The notes under the pieces are model-generated. The model saw nothing but the letters and a program-made list of their open reading frames with translations, had not been told where the DNA came from and searched no databases. A program made the position numbers and the translations under genes. This document shows positions 3,701 through 56,618 of a stretch of DNA of 64,000 nt, in pieces. The stretch lies in contig NC_088654.1 in the NCBI RefSeq assembly GCF_964019385.1, positions 10,333,145 to 10,397,144 of the forward strand, written 5' to 3'. Each line of letters begins with the position of its first letter. The first letter of the stretch is position 1. Source of the stretch: Sycon ciliatum (Eukaryota > Porifera > Calcarea > Leucosolenida > Sycettidae).

Positions 3701-3747
3701 CCTTCACTGACGAGATCCTGATGATCGAAACAGCTGCTGTCTGAAGG
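3701..3747 (+). ncRNA. Type I hammerhead ribozyme B1
   Basis: All core positions are present. Stem I is CCTTCA (3701-3706) pairing with TGAAGG (3742-3747), 6 bp. The core CTGACGAG is at 3707-3714. Stem II is GATC/GATC with loop CTGAT. GAAA is at 3727-3730. Stem III is ACAG/CTGT with a 3-nt loop. The predicted cleavage is after C3741 in GTC. Open stem I and a very short stem III are the form known from animal retrozymes and Penelope-like elements. Activity is inferred, not shown. Confidence 0.85.
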
Positions 3748-23506: not shown

Positions 23507-23550
23507 CCTTCAGACAGCTGTTTCGCTAATACATAGCTCATCAGTGAAGG
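23507..23550 (-). ncRNA. Type I hammerhead ribozyme B2
   Basis: Read on the minus strand: stem I CCTTCA/TGAAGG (6 bp). The core CTGATGAG is at 23544-23537. Stem II is GCTA/TAGC with loop TGTAT, and GAAA is at 23524-23521. Stem III is AC/GT closed by AGCT, and C23513 is the cleavage nucleotide. Stem II differs from B1 by compensating changes in both strands (GATC/GATC against GCTA/TAGC), which is evidence that the fold has been maintained. Confidence 0.85.
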
Positions 23551-29903: not shown

Positions 29904-29921
29904 TGGTAGCAGAGGATGGTT
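29904..29921 (+). promoter_or_regulatory. Primer binding site (initiator Met tRNA)
   Basis: tggtagcagaggatggtt starts two bases after the LTR and is complementary to the 3' end of animal initiator methionine tRNA (remembered sequence). The gag ATG at 29916 lies within it. Confidence 0.85.
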
Positions 29922-30761
29922 CCTACTCTGCTTTTGGCAGGTGTTCTGGTCGCTCTGCTTACGCTCCTCGTACTCGTCGTTCGGCTGATAAACGATATCA
30001 AGACCGCTCAGCGCGTTAGCCAAGGAAACCGAACGATACATCCGAACTCGGAACCGTGGGAGCCAACACCCCGCCTTACGAAAGAGCCGCCTGTGTTTGG
30101 AGGAGATTCCGCTACATTCAAAGAATGGACGTTTGCAATGGACATGGCCCTACGGTCGTTGGCGCTCCCAAATGCGGCACAGAGGGTCGACTACGCGGCA
30201 GGATTTTTGACTGGAAACGCTCGTCTTTGGTTGATAGCGGCATTGGAAGCTAACCAAGTGTTTTCCGACTGGCCTGCTCTGAAAGCGGCACTTGGCGATG
30301 TGTACGGACCACGGCACAACGAGGAAACATCGCGTATGGGACTAATTTCCGCAGCGCAGCGCGGGTCGCTGGACGCATACATTGCTGCTTTCACTCGCCT
30401 CAGCCTGCAAGTGCCGGAAATCGACCACCACACCAGAGCGCTGCTGTTCGTCAGGGGTCTAGTGCCGCACATCCAGCGACAGGTCATGCGTGAGCATCCA
30501 CGTACCCTGGAGCAAGCTGTCATGGCAGCAAACACCGTGGAGCAGTCGTCAGGGCCACCGGCGTCGGGGCCACCAGCCAGTAGAGAGTCGCGTTCCGTGC
30601 CCAGCTTCCGTGGTCAGACTCAGGGCCTCCGCAAGCTGACGGACCAAGAGCGTGTCCAACTGCGAGCAATGGGACACTGCTTTGCTTGCAGGAAGCCAGG
30701 CCACCTCGCTAAAGACTGTACTGAGGGTGGACAGCGCTACCCAAACGCTGGTCGCCAGTAA
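29916..30761 (+). CDS. gag: Gag polyprotein of chromovirus
   Basis: 281 codons. Residues 4-27 form an uninterrupted hydrophobic segment (TLLLAGVLVALLTLLVLVVR), unusual for Gag. A retrotransposon capsid-type region follows from about residue 65 (FGGDSATFKEW, then W and L landmarks). A CCHC zinc knuckle, CFACRKPGHLAKDC, lies at about 255-268. Gag forms the particle and binds element RNA. The start codon overlaps the primer binding site, and a later ATG (residue 75, in FAMDM) would drop the hydrophobic part but also cut into the capsid region. Translation ends at TAA 30759-30761. The frame 30725-34423 overlaps it in -1 register. Confidence 0.9.
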   Translation: MVPTLLLAGVLVALLTLLVLVVRLINDIKTAQRVSQGNRTIHPNSEPWEPTPRLTKEPPVFGGDSATFKEWTFAMDMALRSLALPNAAQRVDYAAGFLTGNARLWLIAALEANQVFSDWPALKAALGDVYGPRHNEETSRMGLISAAQRGSLDAYIAAFTRLSLQVPEIDHHTRALLFVRGLVPHIQRQVMREHPRTLEQAVMAANTVEQSSGPPASGPPASRESRSVPSFRGQTQGLRKLTDQERVQLRAMGHCFACRKPGHLAKDCTEGGQRYPNAGRQ

Positions 30762-33700
30762 GAAAGGGGGTGCGCTTACTGGCGACGACCCAAGCACCCA
30801 CGCCGGTACCAGTCGCTAACCGGTTCGGAGCTCTGGAGGTTGAAGACGTTGCTCTCCAGGAACCTACGGAGCCGGAGACACCCATAGCTGTAGGAAATTG
30901 TCCCGTTGCAGAAAGGTGTCATGTCAGCAACGTCAGCGTCGGCAATGAACCTGAACACGACCTACTGCGCATACAGGGAAAGATCGGCGGTCGCCGTGCA
31001 GTGATGCTGATAGATTCCGGTTCGACGCATGACTTCATTGCAGACAGTTTTGTTCGAAAGCATCATCTTGACACGGATGCAAGCTCAGCAGTGCTGAGCG
31101 TAACATTGGCGGACGGCTCGACCAGCGAGGTCCCGCAGATTTCCACACGCACGCTAAGGGTGACAGTCGGGGGCTTCAGTGAGGAACAGCACTTTACTGT
31201 GTATCCCCTGACTCGCTACGACGCTATTCTTGGCAAGCCGTGGCTTACAAGGAACAACCCCAGCATCAACTTCCGTACGAACGAAGTTCAGTTGGACGGT
31301 GAGCCCTTTGTTGCCGAATTGCCTGCAGCTAACCCGCCGACAGCCGACCGGCCATCTGTGGAAAGCATGTTTATCAGTGGCCGACAAGCTCGTCATGCCC
31401 TGAGGAGTGGAGCCGAGGGGTTTCTTGCATGGGTCACTGCTGCAAACGAGGAGAATCGTTCCGGGCCACAACTCCAGGAATCAGAGCAACAAGACATCCA
31501 GAACCTGCTCAAGAGGTACCAGGATTTATTTCCAGACGAGCTGCCGAATGAGCTTCCACCGAAGAGACCAGTCGACCATGAAATCCAGATAGAAGATGGA
31601 GCCAGACCACCGTCTCGACCCGCCTACCGCCTGCCGAAACCAGAGATGGACGAGCTCCAGTCACAGCTGTCAGAATTACTTGAGAAGGGATTCATTGAGC
31701 CAAGTAAGTCGCCATACGGTGCACCTGTGTTTTTTGTGAAAAAGTCGGATGGTACTCTGAGAATGGTGTGCGATTGGCGAGAATTGAATAGAATTACGAT
31801 CAAAAACAAAGCTTGTCTTCCTAATATTGATGACTTATTCGACACGATCCAGGGCAGTGCATATTTCTCCAAGTTGGACTTGCGGTCGGGGTACAATCAA
31901 ATCAGAATTCAAGACTCGGATGTTTCTAAGACGGCCATTAATACGCCGTTCGGCCACTTCCAATTTAGAGTCATGGGATTCGGGCTGACTAATGCCCCGG
32001 CCACCTTTCAGTCACTCATGAACTCTATTCTGCAACCGCATCTCCGAAAATTCGTTGTAGTATTCTTGGATGACATTCTAGTTTTCAGCAAGACCTGGGA
32101 AGATCATCAGCATCATCTTCAAACAGTTCTAGAAACACTTAGAAATAGTGAGCTGTATTGCAAACAGTCTAAATGCGAATTCGGCGTGAGAGAAGTTCTC
32201 TTCTTGGGGCATAAAATCAACGGCACATCAATTTCCCCTGATCCCAAGAAGATAAGTGCTGTGGAAACATGGCCAACTCCGTCGTCAGTAACTGATGTGA
32301 GGAAGTTTCTTGGCTTTGCAAACTATTTCCGAAGGTTCATAGATCGACACTCGACCATCTCTCGTCCATTAGAAGAAATCACCGGAAAAAATTCACGCTT
32401 TGAATGGAGCGCTGCTAGACAGAAGGCATTCGAGTCTCTAAAATCAGCATTACTCGAGGCGCCAGTGTTGCAACTGGCCGATGTTGAGAAAAGCTTCACG
32501 GTAGAAACTGACGCAAGTGACTTTGCCGTGGCGGGTGTGCTCCTGCAGCAGGGAGAAGATATGGATTTGCATCCCGTAGCCTATTGTAGTCGGAAACTGT
32601 CAGCTGCAGAACGCAACTATACTGCGGCCGAGAGGGAAACGTTGGCTGTGGTATTTGCATTAAAGTGCTGGAGAATCTATCTATTCCGCCACTTTGACCT
32701 GATGACTGATAATATGGGTGTTGTCTATTTACGAACCAAACCGACTCTCACCAAGCGTGAGGCAAGATGGGTAGAGTTTTTAGCTGACTATGACTTTACG
32801 GTCTTTCACAAACCAGGAAAGAAAAACATTGCCGACCCGCTTTCACGCCGTCCAGATCTGTTCAGTGATTCTGAAATAGGCGGGTCATCCTATCCTCCTA
32901 ACATTCAGTTGAATGCCATAGAGCATACCCTAGAGATTAATCCAGACTTAGCGCAGTTAATTGTCAGCGGTTACAAGTGCGACAAGGATCTTGCTCCCAT
33001 TATCAGGAGACTGAAAAATTCAAGCCATGACAATCTGCACGACCGTTACCTTCTAAATGAAACACCCGGTTATCTTTATCTCAGATCTTCACCACAGAAC
33101 AGGTTATGCATTCCAAAGAGTAGCAAACTCCGACTCGCCCTGCTTCAAGAATACCATGACTGTGTGACTGCGGGGCATCCCGGTCGAGATCGCACCTATT
33201 TCAGACTCGCTAGATATTTCTATTGGCCCAGAATGGGACTGGATGTAAAGGCGTTTGTCAAGTCATGTGACGTCTGCCAACGAGTTAAAGGCGGCCAGCT
33301 AAAAACTGGTCTCTTGCAGAATTTACCAGTGCCCAGTCAGCCGTGGGCGGATATCTCGATGGATTTTATCATGGGTTTGCCTAGGACCGATACAGGTCAT
33401 GATGCTATATATGTATTTGTAGACCGCTTGACAAAGTGTGTACATTTAGCACCTACTTCCTCTACTATTGACGCTAAAGGAAGTGCTGATCTGTATATTC
33501 AACATGTATTTCGACTTCATGGTTTGAGTTCTAGTATTGTATGTGATCGTGATCCAAGATTTACGGCAGCATTTTTTCAGGAATTGTTTGATCGCTTAGG
33601 AACGAAACTAGCATTTAGTACTGCCAATCACCCTCAGACAGATGGCCTAACTGAACGAGTAAACAGAATAGTAGAGGATGTGCTGAGGGCTTTTGTAAAT

Positions 33701-34423
33701 CATAAACAAGATAACTGGGATATGCTCCTACCTCTCTGTGAGTTTTCTATCAACAGCGCTACTCAATCATCTACAGGAAACACACCGTTCTTCTTAAATT
33801 ACGGTCTAAATCCCAGAGCGCCACCCGACTTCCTCAACCCTATTCAGGGAGGCAGAGATTCAGCTGATTGGTTGCAAGCAAGACAAGACGCGGTCAAGAT
33901 CTCACAAGATGCGCTAGTGGCAGCTCAAGCTCGTCAGGCCTTCTATGCAGATCGGACAAGGGTCGAGGGAAAGCTGAAGGTGGGAGATTTGGTAATGGTC
34001 TACCGGGATTTCCTCCTGACTCCTGAAGCTCGGGACCGACCATCCCATAAATTACGCCCCAAGTGGTTTGGCCCCTTTCCTATAACCCATGTGGTCGGCC
34101 CGAATGCCTACAAGCTCAAGTTGCCTCATACCAGCCGCTGTCACCCGGTATTTAATGTGTCGGCACTCCGTGCCTACGAGAAGAACGCTATTCCTAATAG
34201 GAGACAGCCTACGCCTCCGCCTATCACGGACCTTGATGGTCATGCCCGCTATGTGGTGGAGAACATTCTCAGTCACCGCCGCCGGCAGAATCAGCTTCAG
34301 TACCTAGTCAAGTGGCAAGGCTACTCTGATGCCACTTGGGAGCCTGAACATTATTTGTTGGATGAATCTGGTAATGACATTGTTCCACTTCAGAAGTACA
34401 AAACCTTGGCTTCTGCCCGCTGA
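30725..34423 (+). CDS. pol: Pol polyprotein of chromovirus (PR-RT-RH-IN-chromodomain)
   Basis: The open frame runs from just after TGA 30722-30724 to TGA at 34421-34423. It is expected to be made as a Gag-Pol fusion, not from its own start. Residues are counted from codon 30770. Aspartic protease active site DSG is at 82-84. Reverse transcriptase spans about 285-480, with KLD (370) and catalytic FLDD (432-435). RNase H has TDAS (D581) and MTDN (D647). Integrase zinc domain has H796, H803, C833 and C836. The catalytic triad is D865, D926, E962 with the expected 35-residue gap. A GPF module lies near 1101, and the chromodomain at about 1158-1210 (YLVKWQGY, TWEP). All key residues are present and there are no internal stops, so it appears functional. 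Confidence 0.95.
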   Translation, partial: GWTALPKRWSPVRKGVRLLATTQAPTPVPVANRFGALEVEDVALQEPTEPETPIAVGNCPVAERCHVSNVSVGNEPEHDLLRIQGKIGGRRAVMLIDSGSTHDFIADSFVRKHHLDTDASSAVLSVTLADGSTSEVPQISTRTLRVTVGGFSEEQHFTVYPLTRYDAILGKPWLTRNNPSINFRTNEVQLDGEPFVAELPAANPPTADRPSVESMFISGRQARHALRSGAEGFLAWVTAANEENRSGPQLQESEQQDIQNLLKRYQDLFPDELPNELPPKRPVDHEIQIEDGARPPSRPAYRLPKPEMDELQSQLSELLEKGFIEPSKSPYGAPVFFVKKSDGTLRMVCDWRELNRITIKNKACLPNIDDLFDTIQGSAYFSKLDLRSGYNQIRIQDSDVSKTAINTPFGHFQFRVMGFGLTNAPATFQSLMNSILQPHLRKFVVVFLDDILVFSKTWEDHQHHLQTVLETLRNSELYCKQSKCEFGVREVLFLGHKINGTSISPDPKKISAVETWPTPSSVTDVRKFLGFANYFRRFIDRHSTISRPLEEITGKNSRFEWSAARQKAFESLKSALLEAPVLQLADVEKSFTVETDASDFAVAGVLLQQGEDMDLHPVAYCSRKLSAAERNYTAAERETLAVVFALKCWRIYLFRHFDLMTDNMGVVYLRTKPTLTKREARWVEFLADYDFTVFHKPGKKNIADPLSRRPDLFSDSEIGGSSYPPNIQLNAIEHTLEINPDLAQLIVSGYKCDKDLAPIIRRLKNSSHDNLHDRYLLNETPGYLYLRSSPQNRLCIPKSSKLRLALLQEYHDCVTAGHPGRDRTYFRLARYFYWPRMGLDVKAFVKSCDVCQRVKGGQLKTGLLQNLPVPSQPWADISMDFIMGLPRTDTGHDAIYVFVDRLTKCVHLAPTSSTIDAKGSADLYIQHVFRLHGLSSSIVCDRDPRFTAAFFQELFDRLGTKLAFSTANHPQTDGLTERVNRIVEDVLRAFVNHKQDNWDMLLPLCEFSINSATQSSTGNTPFFLNYGLNPRAPPDFLNPIQGGRDSADWLQARQDAVKISQDALVAAQARQAFYADRTRVEGKLKVGDLVMVYRDFLLTPEARDRPSHKLRPKWFGPFPITHVVGPNAYKLKLPHTSRCHPVFNVSALRAYEKNAIPNRRQPTPPPITDLDGHARYVVENILSHRRRQNQLQYLVKWQGYSDATWEPEHYLLDESGNDIVPLQKYKTLASAR
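30740..30799 (+). promoter_or_regulatory. -1 programmed frameshift site with H-type pseudoknot
   Basis: The slippery heptamer CCCAAAC (30740-30746) is in the right register with gag (C CCA AAC). After a 4-nt spacer, stem 1 pairs GTCGCCAGTAAG (30751-30762) with CTTACTGGCGAC (30775-30786), 12 perfect pairs. Stem 2 pairs GGGTGC (30768-30773) in the loop with GCACCC (30794-30799). Loops are 5, 1 and 7 nt. The gag stop codon lies within stem 1. The shift enters the pol frame, which has no ATG of its own nearby. Confidence 0.85.
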
Positions 34424-37336: not shown

Positions 37337-38995
37337 CAGCCTGGGAAACCGCCAACGTCGCAGCAGGCTAGTGAGACCCTCTGAGGCACCCTATACAGGA
37401 GGTCAAAAGAAATGCGGCACGTGACAAATGCCATAACCCTCCCTTGCGATTCTCTACGCCTGTCGCCAAACACGATACAATTCCCTTTGACAGGTAGTAG
37501 ATCGTGATCGCGAATCGGGATACACCCAGCTCAAGCTTATCCACGGCTCGAACAATGTCATTGTTGGAAGCTGGAATAATAATTATTATATCTTTCTCTT
37601 TCCAAAGCCCTTACATGGAAGCAATACAGATAATTCGCATACCGTGTGGGATATGAAGTTATCCTTGGTGTCCATCGGCAAAATCACGCGTCTTGCGCAT
37701 CAGTCAGCACGACACTACAGCATTCATCCCCTTCGTCCTCAGGCCAAGCGATTTGAATGGATGTACACATATCCCACGCCGACGCGCATATCCAGCATTG
37801 ATGCCGAGACCATTATGGTCGGCAGAGCTTGGTACCGGTATGTCCCAGCCACCCCACTATTTCCTTTGGCGTTTGTAGCTGCTTGCTACGCCCGGAAACC
37901 CATTATTGGACTCTTCAGTGTACATTGCCGATAGTAAGTTCCCGTAGGAAGATCCGCTCAGCTACCCATGCGGTGATCGATAGGGCTAGTGATGCACCAT
38001 CCATACAGCAATGAATGCACTTTAGTTTTGTTCTTTCACCTTCCCGCTGCCAGGGAATATGGGCCAATATGGAGGGAAGGGCGATAGCCAGCCATGGCAG
38101 TAAGTAGAAACAATTCAAAACAATGCAAAATTAACAAATTACAAGAGGCAACAATAAAAATCGGGCGAGGCATGTACAGCCCACTGTAACGACTCCCCAC
38201 TGTACACGTCCCTAGAATACTGTAATGCCCTCAATGCTAGCAATTGTGATGCTCCCTCCCGACCTGATTTCAAACTAATTTTCAGTACTGCGTTCCTCTG
38301 CAGCCTCAGAAACCGCCAACATCGCAGGAGGCTCATGATGCCCTCTGACTCTGAGTCTGAGGCACGCTATACAGAAGGTGAAAAGAAATGCGGCACGTGA
38401 CAAATGCAATGACATGTGCTTGCTTGCGGTTCTCTACGCCTGTCAGCCAACGACGTTGCAGTTCGCTGTGACAGGTAGATCGTGATCGCGAATCGTGATA
38501 CACCCAGCTCAAGCTTATCCACGGCTCGAACAGTGCCAATGTTGGAAGCTGGGATCTATCTATCTCTTTCCAAAGCCCTTGCACGGAAGCAATGCAGATA
38601 ATTCACATACCGTCTGGGATATGAAGTTATCCTTGGTGTCCATCGGCAAAATCACGCATCTCGCGCATCAGTCAGTACAACAGTAGAGCATTCGTTCCTT
38701 TCGGACTCAGCCCAAGCGACTTGAATGGATGTACATGTACATAAGATCCCACGCCATCCCGCCTATCCAGCATTGATGCCGAGACCATTATGGTCGGCAG
38801 CGCATGGCACCGGTATGTCCCACCCACTCCACCATTTCATTTGGAGTTGGTAGCTGTTGATATTGGTTGATAGCTATCATTGGACTCTTCAGTGCACTTT
38901 GCCCATTGTGAAGTCCGTAGAAATATCCGCTCAGCTACGCATACAGAGATGGATAGGGCTAGTGACACACCGTGCACGAAGCAATGAATGCAATG
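37337..38995. repeat. Direct tandem duplication, offset about 960 bp
   Basis: The block 37337-38020 (aaaccgccaacgtcgcag, gatatgaagttatccttggt, atcggcaaaatcacgc, attatggtcggca) is repeated at 38299-38995 with about 10% divergence. Between them lies a LINE tail similar to 36430-36500. No coding signature is seen. Confidence 0.8.
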
Positions 38996-39722
38996 ATTCT
39001 TTGGTGCAGAACCACTTCAGTTGAGTTCGAACTCAACAGCATGCATTCTCTGGCCAACATTCACACCACCGACGCGACTCGAGGTTGTTAGAGATATTGG
39101 CGACAAAATAAATTCCCCGGTTACCCTCGTATAATGGTCACAACCTAAAAATAGGTACCACACATCAAATGTATAACATTTCCCATTGAGGTCCGGTACT
39201 ATCATGTATGGTTCATGCACATGCATATGTACATGCTTGCACTTACCGAGAGGCTGACGAATGTTGTCCGTCCCATGTTTGCCAGCTCGGTCCCCTTCCC
39301 GGCGTCTCCAGCAGGTTCAAAGAATACAGAACAACACTAACGCCACTAGAGACGTTTATTATCACGAACTGGTCGTGAATCAATTGACAAAGAATGAACC
39401 GATCGGTGTGCAGGACGGTTCGATAATTTTTGTAGACTTCACGAGCAATGATGCCGGTGCAGCAGCGATTACCGTGTGCAGAACAGATACAGCGTCGCTT
39501 TCATACGACTACCATTACTCCACTACAAGTTAGTTAGTGACAGCTTGTCGCGTCAAACATACTGCCGCCTCTGGTGGGACGTTGACATATTCTACCGATT
39601 TTAGGCCGCGTGACAAACTCTCAACTGCCACAAGAAGCATGTCAAACGTTTCACTCGGTAAAATATTGAGAAATGAATATTTTCATTTCCATTGCTATCA
39701 GGTTCGGCCTCATTCCTCTGTG

Positions 39723-39766
39723 CTGTGCTGACGAGTCCACAAAGGACGAAACAGTTCTGTCCGCAG
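39723..39766 (+). ncRNA. Type I hammerhead ribozyme A1
   Basis: Stem I is CTGTG (39723-39727) with CGCAG (39762-39766), one G-U pair. The core CTGACGAG is at 39728-39735. Stem II is GTCC/GGAC with loop ACAAA, and GAAA is at 39748-39751. Stem III is ACAG/CTGT with a 2-nt loop. The predicted cleavage follows C39761. Confidence 0.85.
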
Positions 39767-39947
39767 ATTGAGTATTTCGCTCCTGCTCTTATAGCAGTTG
39801 AGCACTCTTGCGTGGGGTAGTGCCTTTGCTGTTTGCGTTATGCAGAGCTCACTGACTTGTCAGTTTGAGCACTCTGGCAAGGTACGTTCGGGCCTGATTG
39901 GAAATTTTTATTTCCATTGCTATCATGTTCGGCCTCATTCCTCTGTG

Positions 39948-39991
39948 CTGCGCTGACGAGTCCACAAAGGACGAAACAGTTCTGTCCGCAG
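39948..39991 (+). ncRNA. Type I hammerhead ribozyme A2
   Basis: Identical to A1 except that stem I is CTGCG/CGCAG, a full Watson-Crick helix (U-G replaced by C-G). Predicted cleavage after C39986. Confidence 0.88.
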
Positions 39992-40422
39992 ATTGAGAAA
40001 TGAATACTTATCAGTGGACGAACTGTTTCATCTCTTTCTGGGGCTATTTTTAGAACGTCACAACTTTCATGGGTGCTTTTTAGGTCTTCATGACGAGCTG
40101 GTAATGTGTGCGTGATTCCGCTTCATTCCAGGAGAAATGCTTCGTGGTGTTCGTGGCCTTCGTGGTATTGTTGTATCCTTGCAGTGGTGAGCACTCTAGC
40201 AATTTGGGAACTCCCACTGGTGAATTGTAGCATTAGTCACAATAGTATTTACACAAACGGCGAGGAGACAATAATTTTGATAACCGCAATCAATAAGACA
40301 AGCTAAATCGACATTTGTCACCTTGATTTTTGTGTACTTTATTCATGCAATGTAAAGCGGTGGAGACGCCATCGTGCAATAGAACGATGAAAGTAGGAGG
40401 AAATAGTGTAGAGAAAGATTAG

Positions 40423-40460
40423 GATTCAAACATTTTTTCGTACAACTCTCAGCAGGAATT
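40423..40460 (-). ncRNA. Decayed hammerhead C2
   Basis: Same frame of helices as C3, but the core reads CTGCTGAG: the invariant A after CTG is changed. The GAAA region has gained adenines. Unlikely to cleave. Confidence 0.65.
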
Positions 40461-40735
40461 GTCATTATACTAAAATACACTGAAACAAAACTGAACTATT
40501 ATAGGAAACCTAAGTTAGAGAAATACCACCAAGAACAACAGCAGTGAAATGTACTAGTATTTAAATATTCGTCGAGGAGAAAACAATTTTAATATGGCAA
40601 TAAGTAGGACGAGCTGAAGTGACATTTGAATTACTTTATAAAGTTAAACAGTGTAAGTGATGGAGACGATGCAAAAACAATCTAAAGGGTGAGGAAAAAT
40701 ACATGTAAGAAGAAACATGCGATGGAAAAAAAGGT

Positions 40736-40773
40736 GATTCGAACAAGTTTTCGTACAGCACTCTTCAGGAATC
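40736..40773 (-). ncRNA. Type I hammerhead ribozyme C3
   Basis: On the minus strand: stem I GATTC (40773-40769) with GAATC (40740-40736), 5 perfect pairs. The core CTGAAGAG is at 40768-40761. Stem II is GTG/TAC with loop CTG, and GAAA is at 40752-40749. Stem III is AAC/GTT with loop TT. Cleavage is predicted after C40741. Intact; lies about 310 bp from C2 in the same orientation. Confidence 0.75.
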
Positions 40774-41344
40774 TCCGTTGTACTAAAGAACAAAATTAGA
40801 ACAAAGGAAATAATAATAGCAGTCAAGATAGGGTAGCAGGATACAATGACAGCACTGGAATATCGAGGTGCGATTTCTCACAAAAGTGTGCTGAAAACAA
40901 GGGTATACAAGTAAGAACTAAGCGTGAAAAGTGTGTATCAGCAACAAAAAAGTGAGCACGAATTAGGCCTCGACCAAATATGCTAAAAAAGAGCATATTA
41001 TGCTCGTCGCATATCAGGAGAGAAGACAAAATATGCCAAAGGCTTAGCAAGATATGGAAAAAGATATGCCAAAATATACCAAAATATGCTCGACATAAGC
41101 AGAAAGTGTAGATCATTTCAGTAAAATTACAACCTTGAAATATTCATTGGCTTCATGGCTATCATGCTTATGATGCAAATCAAAACACATGCGGAATAGT
41201 ATTTAGAAAAGCGATCCTGTCAGCTTTTCTATTATTGTGTTCACATGGCAAGAAAAACGACATCGCTATGCTACGTAAGTTTCTACGTAAGGTGCTCGGT
41301 ATTTCACTTAGACTACGTAAGTCTCTACGTAAGGTGCTCGGTAT

Positions 41345-41382
41345 AGGTATACCAAGAGTCCATTATGGACTCTTGGTGTACC
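41345..41382. repeat. Palindromic micro-insertion (38 bp)
   Basis: Arms ggtataccaagagtccat and atggactcttggtgtacc pair with one mismatch. GGTAT stands on both sides (41340-41344 and 41383-41387). Copy A has a single GGTAT and no insert. Confidence 0.85.
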
Positions 41383-43541
41383 GGTATTAGATCTACCAAC
41401 GGGTGGTAGCCGCGTGCTGTGCACGTGCACGGCAGCCGGCAGACATTGTGTTGCATGCAGTGCAGTCCGTGTTCGGACGTGCATGCGCGAGGAACTTCCT
41501 TCTTTGGAACTGCTTCTTGTATGAGCTGTTTCGGATATTTCGTCTCCTGGCCTGGCTTATTTCGTTTCGGCGCTGCTGAGACCTCCTTTCGCGGAATATT
41601 ACTCAATGACAGGTTCGTTGACCAGTTCCCTTTGATTCATTTGCTTGTGTTCACTCTTTCATTTACGAAAAGTGTGCTGATTTTGGGCGGAATGCAATAA
41701 ATAATGGAAAAGCTGACAGGATCTCTTTTCTAAATTTTGCTTTTCCGCTGCCGAGGTCTCCTTTTACGGAATACTCGATGACAGGTGATCGATCTCTGAG
41801 TTGACCTGTTTCCTTCGATTCATTTCCTTATGCTCACCCTTTCATTTACGGAAACGTGTGCTGATTTTATTCGGATTTAGATCCATTTTTATCTCTTTGC
41901 CCTTGTCTACAGTGTGCGAAGAACGCGAGTTCACCTTCTTGACGGTAAGGCTCATGTTAGATGTGTTGTCGAAATACTCATATTCATTGTACATTGGTAC
42001 GTTACAAGTTAGGCACTGGTCAGTGGCATACCATCGTTGGCAGTTCCCAATCTGGAGGGAAAGGTTCAAGGACCCATTGAGTTTGCAAAATAAATTCGCA
42101 TACGGTATCAGGGAAAATCTCCATTGTGGAGAGGTTCAGTAAACTTGTTTGCTTCATACGAAACAAGCCCATGGGTGCAGTCTCGTCTCGTGAAGATCTC
42201 GTACCTGTGGGATTGGATTTGTTTACTAGAGTCTGGGCTGTTTGATTTGTGAGTACCGCCGAGATTGCACTGCCCCAAATAAATTTTCGTGCCGCCAAAG
42301 CAAGAATTACGATCTGCAATCTGTTTGTAGTACCTGCAAGAATGTGCTGTACATGTATCGTACTTTCTCTATTGCTGTTTCAGTTGCCGTCATGTTGCTA
42401 AAGAAACGTTCAGTAGAGAGGTTCTGCAAAACGAAAATTCGAACGAGGTTTCGCGACAGTCCTTGCGAAAGTGTGTACAAATTTTTGCACGAACTTTGCG
42501 TTCTGCACATTTTCGTAGTTTGCGCGGGCCAAGTGCACGTACGCCATGACCCGATCTCACGAAATTTCCTACGACAGTTCATTTCGTGTTCCCTGCAAGT
42601 TTCGCGTCCAAAGTTGCGAAAGTTCGTGCGAAGTTTCGCACTTCATAACGTAGAACGAAAGTTTGTACGCGTTTTCGTTTTGCAGAACCTCTCTAGTGAC
42701 TCATTTGTTTCATACGAGACTAGTCAATGAGTTGGTGTGGCTTAGAATCTTTCGCTATAGAAGAAATCTATTCGTATGTCTATTGGAGAAATAATTGTAT
42801 TCACTGGTTATATATGTAAAATAGGTTAAGATAAACTCACAGAATAAATACCATCGTTCCCTTGGTGTTCGTCCTAAAGAGGTTCGACTGGATATCATTC
42901 ATACTCACCAAAAGATGTGTAAGATTTTATCATTTATGGAGTGCCTTGTTTATCTCTCAGTACCTCCAAGCATAGCCTTGCCCCTTTTATCCTCAGGATC
43001 AGTGTAGTTGTTGGAACGAGGTGTCGGACTCAGCAATGTATTTGTTTACATTTTAATACATGTTTATTGTTCCTCCTTTGCTGTGTTGTTTTAGAAAATC
43101 GTGGACTAACAGTTTGAAGTCATTGAACTACTTCCAAAAGTTGTATCGACATCAACAGAATTACGATTTCAGTGCAATATGATGCAGGATGAGTCTGGAT
43201 GACCTTATTACGATAACCCATGATTATAAACACAGAATCAACAAAAACATCTGCGACACGCACCTGGTTACATTTCTCAAGTAAATCTGATCCAGGGTGG
43301 GGAAATCTGAAATATCTGAAAGGCAAGACAATTTTATGACAGTCATGAAATTCTGCTACAGCAACATGCACAGAATGACCTCCGTATAAAAAGTATCACC
43401 ACGGTCCATCACTACTCACATGTTTCCCCGCAGAAGAACATGCTAGCCTAGTGCCATTTTCTGCAAGAAAAGGCTTGCACCTCAATGCGTATAATACGGT
43501 ATTGATATGGTGTGAAGGCCATCATTTACATATTGATACAG

Positions 43542-53810: not shown

Positions 53811-53813
53811 GTA

Positions 53814-54054
53814 CTGTATAGCAGGACATTTTCGGACGGAATTATTTTCGGACAAAGCCGAATTTCGACCTTTCGTACGGATTTTATTTGCGTACAGTGC
53901 TGCATGCTAAATGCACGTATTCGCAAGCAGTACCCATGTACAGTGTACATAAGTCACATGAACAAATTTTAGTACGGAATTAATTTTAGTACAAAAAGGC
54001 CGTGTACGAAATCGTCCGAAAATATATTCCGTCCGAAAATTTCCTGCTATACAG
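53814..54054. mobile_element. 241-bp TA-target MITE
   Basis: Ends CTGTATAGCAGGACATTTTC and GAAAATTTCCTGCTATACAG, flanked by TA. Inner repeats of ttcggac. Tc1/mariner-like target. Confidence 0.85.
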
Positions 54055-54089
54055 TACTTCGCAGCTTCTACGTTACACTGAGACATTAA

Positions 54090-54204
54090 GGGCACAAAAC
54101 TCACAGGCTACGGAGACATTCAATGACCTGAGACCTAGCTCTGGAGGTGTGAAAGCGAGGTCTTGGGTCATTGAATGCCTCCGTAGGCTGTGAGTTTTGT
54201 GCCC
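54090..54204. repeat. 115-nt near-perfect hairpin
   Basis: Arms of about 45 bp, gggcacaaaactcacag... and ...ctgtgagttttgtgccc, around a loop of about 25 nt. Confidence 0.85.
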
Positions 54205-55736: not shown

Positions 55737-56152
55737 TACAGTAAAACCTGTAACAAAAGACCACCGTGACTAGCGACCAGCCTGGTACTACAGTAAAACC
55801 TGTAACTAAAGACCACCGTGACTAGCGACCAGCCTGGTACTACAGTAAAACCTGTAACTAAAGACCACCGTGACTAGCGACCAGCCTGGTACTACAGTAA
55901 AACCTGTAACTAAAGACCACCGTGACTAGCAACCAGCCTGGCACTACAGTAAAACCTGTAACTAAAGACCACCGTGACTAGCGACCAGCCTGGTACTACA
56001 GTAAAACCTGTAACTAAAGACCACCGTGACTAGCGACCAGCCTGGTACTACAGTAAAACCTGTAACTAAAGACCACCGTGACTAGCGACCAGCCTGGTAC
56101 TACAGTAAAACCTGTAACAAAAGACCACCGTGACTAGCGACCAGCCTGGTAC
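55737..56152. repeat. 52-bp satellite made from a MITE end (8 units)
   Basis: Eight exact-length units starting tacagtaaaacctgtaac and ending cctggtac, at 52-bp steps from 55737. A ninth start at 56153 is the left end of the full M1 element. Confidence 0.95.
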
Positions 56153-56154
56153 TA

Positions 56155-56618
56155 CAGTAAAACCTGTAACTAAAGACCACCGTGACTAGCGACAAGCCTG
56201 GTTGTAGAGACCACTTCGCCAGGCACGGACGGTCTCACATTGTGTACGCTTCTCGTTGGCTGAGAATTCGAAAGAAACGAGAAGCAATGTTCTCTCGAAC
56301 TTCGAATATTTGCGAAGCTTGTTTTTTGCTCTTTGTCTTGCAATGTGGCTGTTCGCAGCCGACCCTGCACTGTGGTTTTGCTGTTGCAAATGTGAGGTGT
56401 GAGAGAGAACATATAATTATGGTTGTGCGGTGCAAACCTCTAACTAAGGACCACCTGCCACTATGTACCGCTTTCTCTGGCGCCAAGTCGAAGGGGTGGT
56501 CGTTGTTCACATGTTTTACTGTAAATATGTGAATGTGAGACGGTCCGTGCCTGGCAAAGTGGTGTGTAATACCAGGTTGGTCGCTAGTCAAGGTGGTCTT
56601 TAGTTACAGGTTTTACTG
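56155..56618. mobile_element. Full-length M1 MITE (464 bp, TA target)
   Basis: Ends CAGTAAAACCTGTAACTAA and TTAGTTACAGGTTTTACTG, flanked by TA. TIRs of about 90 bp extend through the gcacggac/gtccgtgc segment. The interior has a second, smaller inverted repeat homologous to 12742-12845. Confidence 0.85.

Follow-up and report, generated by a model that had tools for sequence, protein, structure and literature searches.

A type I hammerhead retrozyme family in the sponge Sycon ciliatum: fixed 3' insertion ends and a candidate Penelope-like insertion cycle

A stretch of 64,000 nucleotides from the calcareous sponge Sycon ciliatum (NC_088654.1, positions 10,333,145 to 10,397,144 of assembly GCF_964019385.1; hereafter the window) carries two hammerhead ribozyme motifs in tandem, which the original prediction likened to those of retrozymes and Penelope-associated repeats. 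What kind of element do these motifs belong to, and what do its copies reveal about the way in which it is inserted into the genome?

The hammerheads and the insert that carries them

The motifs had been proposed to be two type I hammerheads with cleavage sites 225 nt apart, and closer analysis confirmed this: their 34-nt cores on the plus strand (39728-39761 and 39953-39986) are identical, contain CTGACGA, GAAA and GTC in this order, and place the predicted cuts after 39761 and after 39986, at exactly the expected distance. The claimed difference between the copies in stem I, a U-G pair in one and a C-G pair in the other, is likewise present in the sequence. Both copies align from end to end with the Rfam type I model RF00163, which was retained as the best of its clan, and their scores of 30.1 and 28.1 bits correspond to E-values of 5.8e-5 and 2.8e-4 in a 1.8-kb search and of 0.0021 and 0.01 in a search of all 64 kb. 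The covariance-model check thus supports the motifs by full-length alignment and low E-values, but not by threshold, as both scores lie below the curated cut-off of 34 bits; for this reason a default Rfam scan of the window listed neither hammerhead, and scans by E-value recovered them. The motifs are embedded in a 99-bp direct repeat (95% identity, spacing 225 nt), and a 39-base hammerhead stretch had no exact match among viral contigs.

These hammerheads are not chance matches, since a 25-nt core searched with up to 3 mismatches gave 3,809 matches in the 538-Mb genome, and the same pattern read backwards, as a control, gave 0. Four hammerheads elsewhere in the genome (loci L009-L012) exceed the RF00163 cut-off, all of them within copies of the same retrozyme family (the one at L009 in a family piece of only 50 nt), and an RF00163 search of 14 named control genomes matched in 0/14. 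The suggestion that a short stem III would make these ribozymes act as dimers proved unnecessary. Stem III comprises 3 to 4 pairs here. According to PMC7761336, most type I hammerheads of invertebrates possess a stable helix III and cleave as monomers, although many type I motifs in which that helix is weak do depend on dimers (here and below, publications are cited from partial texts).

The insert itself spans approximately 312-318 bp and consists of a 5'-truncated unit followed by a full one, the two being enclosed by 15-bp target-site duplications (Table 1). The idea of a tandem pair therefore holds for the hammerheads and less so for the units, as the first is truncated and the element amounts to 1.4 units rather than two full ones. 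The element closes with ATTGAG, six bases with which the duplication also opens, so that the right border of the element falls somewhere from 39991 to 39997. One T of the family consensus is missing from both units, which disagree in 3/95 shared columns, and for this reason we regard the window insert as probably one of the older family copies. No open frame of at least 150 aa overlaps the element, which can consequently only be a client and not an autonomous Penelope-like element; no long terminal repeats were found beyond the units within 38500-41500. The GC content is only just under 50% (0.489 in the window unit, 0.496 in the family consensus). A 15-mer of the TGAGCACTCT type occurs twice inside the unit (39799-39813 and 39866-39880) and once some 180 nt outside the element (40188-40202).

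Table 1. Features of the retrozyme insert in the window
Feature	Position	Strand	Remark
Left target-site duplication ATTGAGAAATGAATA	39665..39679	+	15 bp; reaches 39682 with one mismatch
5'-truncated retrozyme unit up to the first cleavage site	39680..39761	+	82 nt; begins at about unit phase 143
First type I hammerhead	39723..39766	+	Stem I CTGTG/CGCAG (one U-G pair); RF00163 28.1 bits
Full unit between the two predicted cuts	39762..39986	+	225 nt; family consensus 226 nt
GACTTGTCAGT, predicted to pair with the ribozyme core	39854..39864	+	11 bases, in the circular minimum-energy fold
CTCA, predicted 5' arm of outer helix I	39934..39937	+	Predicted partner TGAG 39994-39997; family-consensus fold
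Second type I hammerhead	39948..39991	+	Stem I CTGCG/CGCAG; RF00163 30.1 bits
CGCAGATTGAG, from the cut to the family's commonest insertion end	39987..39997	+	11 nt; last 6 nt overlap the duplication
Right target-site duplication ATTGAGAAATGAATA	39992..40006	+	15 bp

Other repeats share the window. A Ty3-type LTR retrotransposon with gag, protease, reverse transcriptase, RNase H, integrase and chromodomain occupies 29910-34423 in two long open frames, and nine nearly identical 52-bp tandem repeats lie at 55737-56202. Hairpins at 53811-54056 and 54121-54173 resemble microRNA families at scores far under the cut-offs and are probably palindromic repeats.

Folding predictions and the spectrum of variants bear on ribozyme function. 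In the local fold of lowest energy, stem II and outer helix I are preserved and stem I pairs in another register, so that this is not the catalytic fold. Folded as circles, the family consensus (MFE -75.6, z -3.1) and the window unit (MFE -69.7, z -2.0) are stable, and the predicted circle is 66% paired. The pairing of the core with GACTTGTCAGT in this model might keep the circle closed by blocking re-cleavage; by eye, GACTTGTCAGT can alternatively form a hairpin of its own. Ten hammerhead variants retain 13/13 pairs, three of which have changed on both sides, a full score that reflects their choice by hand from 34 distinct sequences, as the omitted ones include broken pairs. When the arms of this ten-variant alignment were slid by 1-3 columns as a control, no such pairs appeared. 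Across all 31 distinct stem sets, 342/367 pairs are kept and 16/31 sets keep every pair; in addition, the L068 variant, in which three pairs have changed, was not picked for its stems and adjoined another copy. As far as the alignments go, the compensated pairs stand despite the choice of variants.

Among otherwise-perfect cores across the genome, N7 was changed in 388, G8 in 15, G12 in 33 and the U of GUC in 45. These counts agree with a working ribozyme. We nevertheless rejected the contrast between N7 and the other three positions as a sign of ribozyme function, given that an old N7-T subfamily would produce an equal contrast, and made no use of core variant rates at the loci found by pattern, which, being picked by their core, can hardly vary there.

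Insertion ends and target-site duplications of the family

To describe the family at its insertion sites we used 60 loci, namely those covering the core-search matches listed for the first 68.7 Mb of contig C1 (five at 71.1-71.3 Mb were left out), which together with the window gave 70 blocks, or 61 after nine duplicates were dropped. All were found through the hammerhead, which adjoins the 3' end, so that the sample consists of copies that reach the hammerhead, those truncated before it being unsampled, and a differing 3' end would still have shown up. The unit spacing, 225 nt in the window, is mostly 226 nt elsewhere, and a search for longer arrays, as the original prediction had advised, was rewarded with arrays of as many as six successive cut sites among these 60 loci.

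The two ends of the inserts behave very differently. The 3' end lies +9 to +17 nt past the ribozyme cut in 58/61 non-duplicate blocks (uniform expectation 2.4), the exceptions being a piece of 45 nt at L048, the plus-strand block that comes first in L084 and a block that runs off the end of L087; the same 3' end recurs in 19/23 blocks, not de-duplicated, of loci found by the Rfam model. By contrast, the 5' ends of the 58 blocks are scattered across the unit (phases 1-222), and the inserts measure 0.24-5.55 units. Clear target duplications, defined as those matched by at most 1 of 60 shuffles, flank 49 of the 67 blocks tested (duplicates included), and they start exactly +11 past the cut in 24/49 and at +9 to +12 in 40/49. 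At the 33 non-duplicate clean sites their median length is 14 bp; 23/33 open with TA, as against 5.7% in the flanks, and T prevails at base 13 (22/33) and A at base 14 (23/33). The +11 position is the foot of outer helix I (CTCA/TGAG in the local fold, which is otherwise not the catalytic one).

A single duplication pair may enclose an entire array (5 cut sites in L046, 6 in L032), so these arrays most likely arrived whole. Only 1/84 blocks across the core-search and Rfam-model loci (at L029) has its end precisely at the cut. A linear RNA that has cut itself terminates in GTC, and inserts begun from that terminus would stop there as well, which argues that the template spans the cut; judging from these junctions, reverse transcription would so start inside an RNA that is continuous across the cleavage junction, either rejoined or uncut. 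Read from sequence, the dispersed copies, flanked by target duplications, constant at the 3' end and truncated at the 5' end, bear the marks of retrotransposition.

As to its kind, the element is, on the sequence features examined, a metazoan non-LTR retrozyme, and the retrozyme reading put forward at the outset is borne out by its 225/226-nt tandem units, type I hammerheads, thousands of copies and stable predicted circle. Metazoan non-LTR retrozymes (Acropora millepora, 220-240 bp, mussel and axolotl; PMC7229834) likewise have type I hammerheads in dimers to multimers, GC below 50%, duplications of more than 4 bp, stable predicted circles and thousands of copies, and units of about 150-450 bp in tandem, the range taken here for membership, include those of the window family; the kinship is one of features. 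Most metazoan retrozyme circles leave the hammerhead free to fold (PMC7229834), whereas the circle predicted here pairs the core. Plant LTR retrozymes are also noncoding, with ribozyme-bounded circles as presumed intermediates, but they have type III hammerheads, circles of 600-800 nt, LTRs, a primer-binding site and 4-bp duplications, in contrast to the type I hammerheads, 225 nt, duplications of ~14 bp and lack of visible LTRs (38500-41500) found here. The new part is the anatomy of insertion and its likeness to Penelope-type priming. The available text of PMC7229834 gives no fixed 3' end or start position and names LINEs or Penelope-like elements (PLEs) as the source of the enzyme, with PLEs as a strong candidate, and we found no insertion-end maps of animal retrozymes in the literature searched, which comprised partial texts and few subscription papers.

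A rejoined circle or an uncut multimer as template

An RNA continuous across the junction could be a circle or a transcript that was never cut. The second possibility, which we consider unlikely, keeps the same element and the same fixed start and takes an uncut multimeric transcript as the template, making ribozyme cutting unnecessary for insertion. A precedent is the Penelope-like enzyme of Anolis, which worked with unprocessed RNA and on which mutations of the ribozyme had no effect (PMC11167929); the compensatory changes in the ribozyme stems described above speak against this possibility. The arrays provide evidence of both sorts.

Units within arrays are nearly identical, with a divergence of 0.0088 in 14 arrays (0.0109 once the badly aligned plus-strand block of L072 is included) compared with 0.0155 between arrays, figures that leave out the ribozyme core and the first 17 positions. 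Together with the accepted duplication pairs, in which 8/510 bases differ, this low divergence indicates that the units were near-identical at insertion, as copies of one circle rather than of a multimeric transcript would be. In the same direction, ribozyme subfamily B, which differs from the main type by five changes and a two-base insertion, occupies every hammerhead of three arrays (three in L011, two in L027 and five in L087). Conversely, L065 mixes two subfamilies in one array, which favours an uncut template; L010 also has both, in a merged block that perhaps represents two neighbouring inserts.

A further array that speaks against an uncut template is L032, the units of which are identical over 226 columns except at base 225 (the U in the cut triplet GUC), where live and mutated triplets alternate (C T C T C T) in a perfect period of two. 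An uncuttable unit and the one beside it would remain together in a circle of 452 nt, and about three rounds of copying would yield the array. Were self-cut circles the sole template, one would not expect a dead cut to recur in adjacent units, and two loci are contrary to this: L103, a long satellite-like array in which adjacent units 226 nt apart share a dead core, and L105 (C2:3.87 Mb), which belongs to an old subfamily whose unit, lengthened by 13 inserted nt, measures 239 nt, and in which two adjacent units have GCC for GUC. Side-by-side repeats were seen for 2/93 dead units and for 6 of the 100 neutral units listed (of 388), a difference that is not significant (p 0.28). As regards dead units spaced by 452 rather than 226 nt, L032 is a clean positive, a 450-nt pair lies in a satellite-like region of C13, and L103 and L105 are contrary cases. 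On the sequence evidence we consider a circular template about twice as plausible as an uncut multimer.

The inserting enzyme and the proposed cycle

The enzyme that inserts animal retrozymes is left open in the available texts of PMC7229834, PMC7761336 and PMC11722881. By analogy, the best candidate for the retrozyme family described here is a Penelope-like enzyme, which we favour because of the internal start, the AT-rich target, the candidate head-to-head copies, an open frame with reverse transcriptase and GIY-YIG matches, and a second hammerhead family. Purified Anolis Penelope-like protein cuts both strands of AT-rich DNA, begins reverse transcription inside the RNA, downstream of the hammerhead and from the same start on both strands, and inserted RNA regardless of the ability of the ribozyme to cut (PMC11167929). 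In one rotifer, Penelope copies often stand head to head; the duplications, when there are any, measure 8-10 bp, a 31-bp tail is optional, and the authors favour self-priming on an antisense template, not priming on both strands, for the head-to-head arrangement (PMC3846280). The retrozyme resembles Poseidon of Anolis (PMC11167929) and Adineta Penelope (PMC3846280) in the hammerhead upstream of an internal start, in an AT-rich target cut on both strands, and in tandem and candidate head-to-head copies with duplications. Unlike Penelope-like elements, it has no long reading frame and a unit of only ~226 nt; its start lies 11 nt past the cut, versus 85-92 nt in Poseidon (PMC11167929), and its duplications measure ~14 bp, versus 8-10 bp in Adineta Penelope (PMC3846280).

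Candidate enzymes exist in the sponge genome. An open frame at L100 matches RVT_1 with 27.4 bits (under the cut-off of 29.6) and GIY-YIG with 25.7 bits (over the cut-off), and GIY-YIG has 13 matches in the genome. A hammerhead motif script run on these 13 loci (~3 kb each) and on one 9-kb Penelope-like region (L116) found no motif, and the retrozyme unit showed no similarity to that 9-kb region. Among the retrozyme copies, L070 consists of two head-to-head arms with both outer ends, by eye, at the same RNA position +11, inside a 13-bp duplication that is uncertain because it lies in a 39-bp host tandem repeat; L027 is also head to head, with no duplication seen.

The second hammerhead family, with 230 exact pattern matches in the genome, has a member in the window at 23508-23550 on the minus strand (core 23513-23544, stem I CCTTCA/TGAAGG, minimal stem III). 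Its 12 aligned copies show, by eye, two 3' ends ~44 nt apart with six copies each (six and four when the flank-sharing L106, L108 and L111 are counted once), and L112 and L114 contain head-to-head copies inside 11-13 bp duplications (by eye); on this evidence the family looks like a Penelope-type repeat. A third hammerhead-like motif at 3701-3747 (plus strand, core 3707-3741), with stem II GATC/GATC and a longer stem III, has the same stem I as the second-family member near 23.5 kb and, by eye, different flanks.

An invariant 3' end, truncation at the 5' end and duplications of 10-20 bp are general features of LINEs and SINEs. The retrozyme copies fit these features too, and a LINE-type enzyme might mobilise it by target-primed, SINE-like parasitism in place of a Penelope-like one. 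We rate this prospect as low, on a par with that of the uncut multimer: the start inside the RNA, beyond the ribozyme cut, and the lack of a tail do not suit it, nor do the head-to-head insert L070, whose two outer ends coincide in RNA position, and the Penelope-like paired 3' ends and head-to-head copies of the second family. It is most improbable that the family is plain satellite DNA in which the hammerheads are passengers and which was spread through DNA circles or unequal crossing over. The dispersed copies contradict this by their target duplications, their constant 3' end and their truncation at the 5' end; satellite-type evolution may apply to the long arrays L103 (C11:4.10 Mb) and L104 (C13:15.74 Mb), which are satellite-like, have mutually differing units and look, from their sequence, as if they had evolved by unequal exchange.

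Taken as a whole, the window element is quite probably a copy of a non-autonomous metazoan-type (non-LTR) retrozyme with a circle-templated, Penelope-like insertion cycle. In such a cycle, a tandem-copy transcript would cut itself at the hammerheads and the resulting 225/226-nt RNA would be closed into a circle by a host RNA ligase, as proposed for animal retrozymes (PMC7229834). A Penelope-like reverse transcriptase/GIY-YIG endonuclease would then cut AT-rich DNA at TA, with the two strands cut about 14 bp apart, a pattern deduced from the copies. Synthesis, to judge by the copies, would begin inside the RNA at a constant point, most often 11 nt beyond the rejoined cut at the base of helix I, and would proceed backwards through the ribozyme and then round the circle until the enzyme falls off. 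A fixed start followed by fall-off would give the constant 3' end, the ragged 5' ends and inserts from 0.24 to 5.55 units, and since the 3' end is just past the cut, truncated copies keep a complete last hammerhead. Occasionally, both cut ends would be primed at the same RNA site and their products joined head to head, with L070 as the one candidate.

The retrozyme junctions described here bear directly on the identity of the inserting enzyme, for the 3' end is fixed past the cut and the template must span it; they also predict exactly what a purified enzyme should do and what reads across the junction of a circular RNA should show. That a Penelope-like enzyme inserts animal-type retrozymes at large, by target-primed reverse transcription of the rolling-circle type starting at the base of the rejoined helix I, is a more tentative proposition, to which we give slightly less than an even chance. 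If it is true, the ribozyme would also mark the start site and its cut sites would set the size of the circle, and a dead cut site that leads to a dimeric circle and thence to a period-two array, as in L032, would be a natural experiment in the genome.
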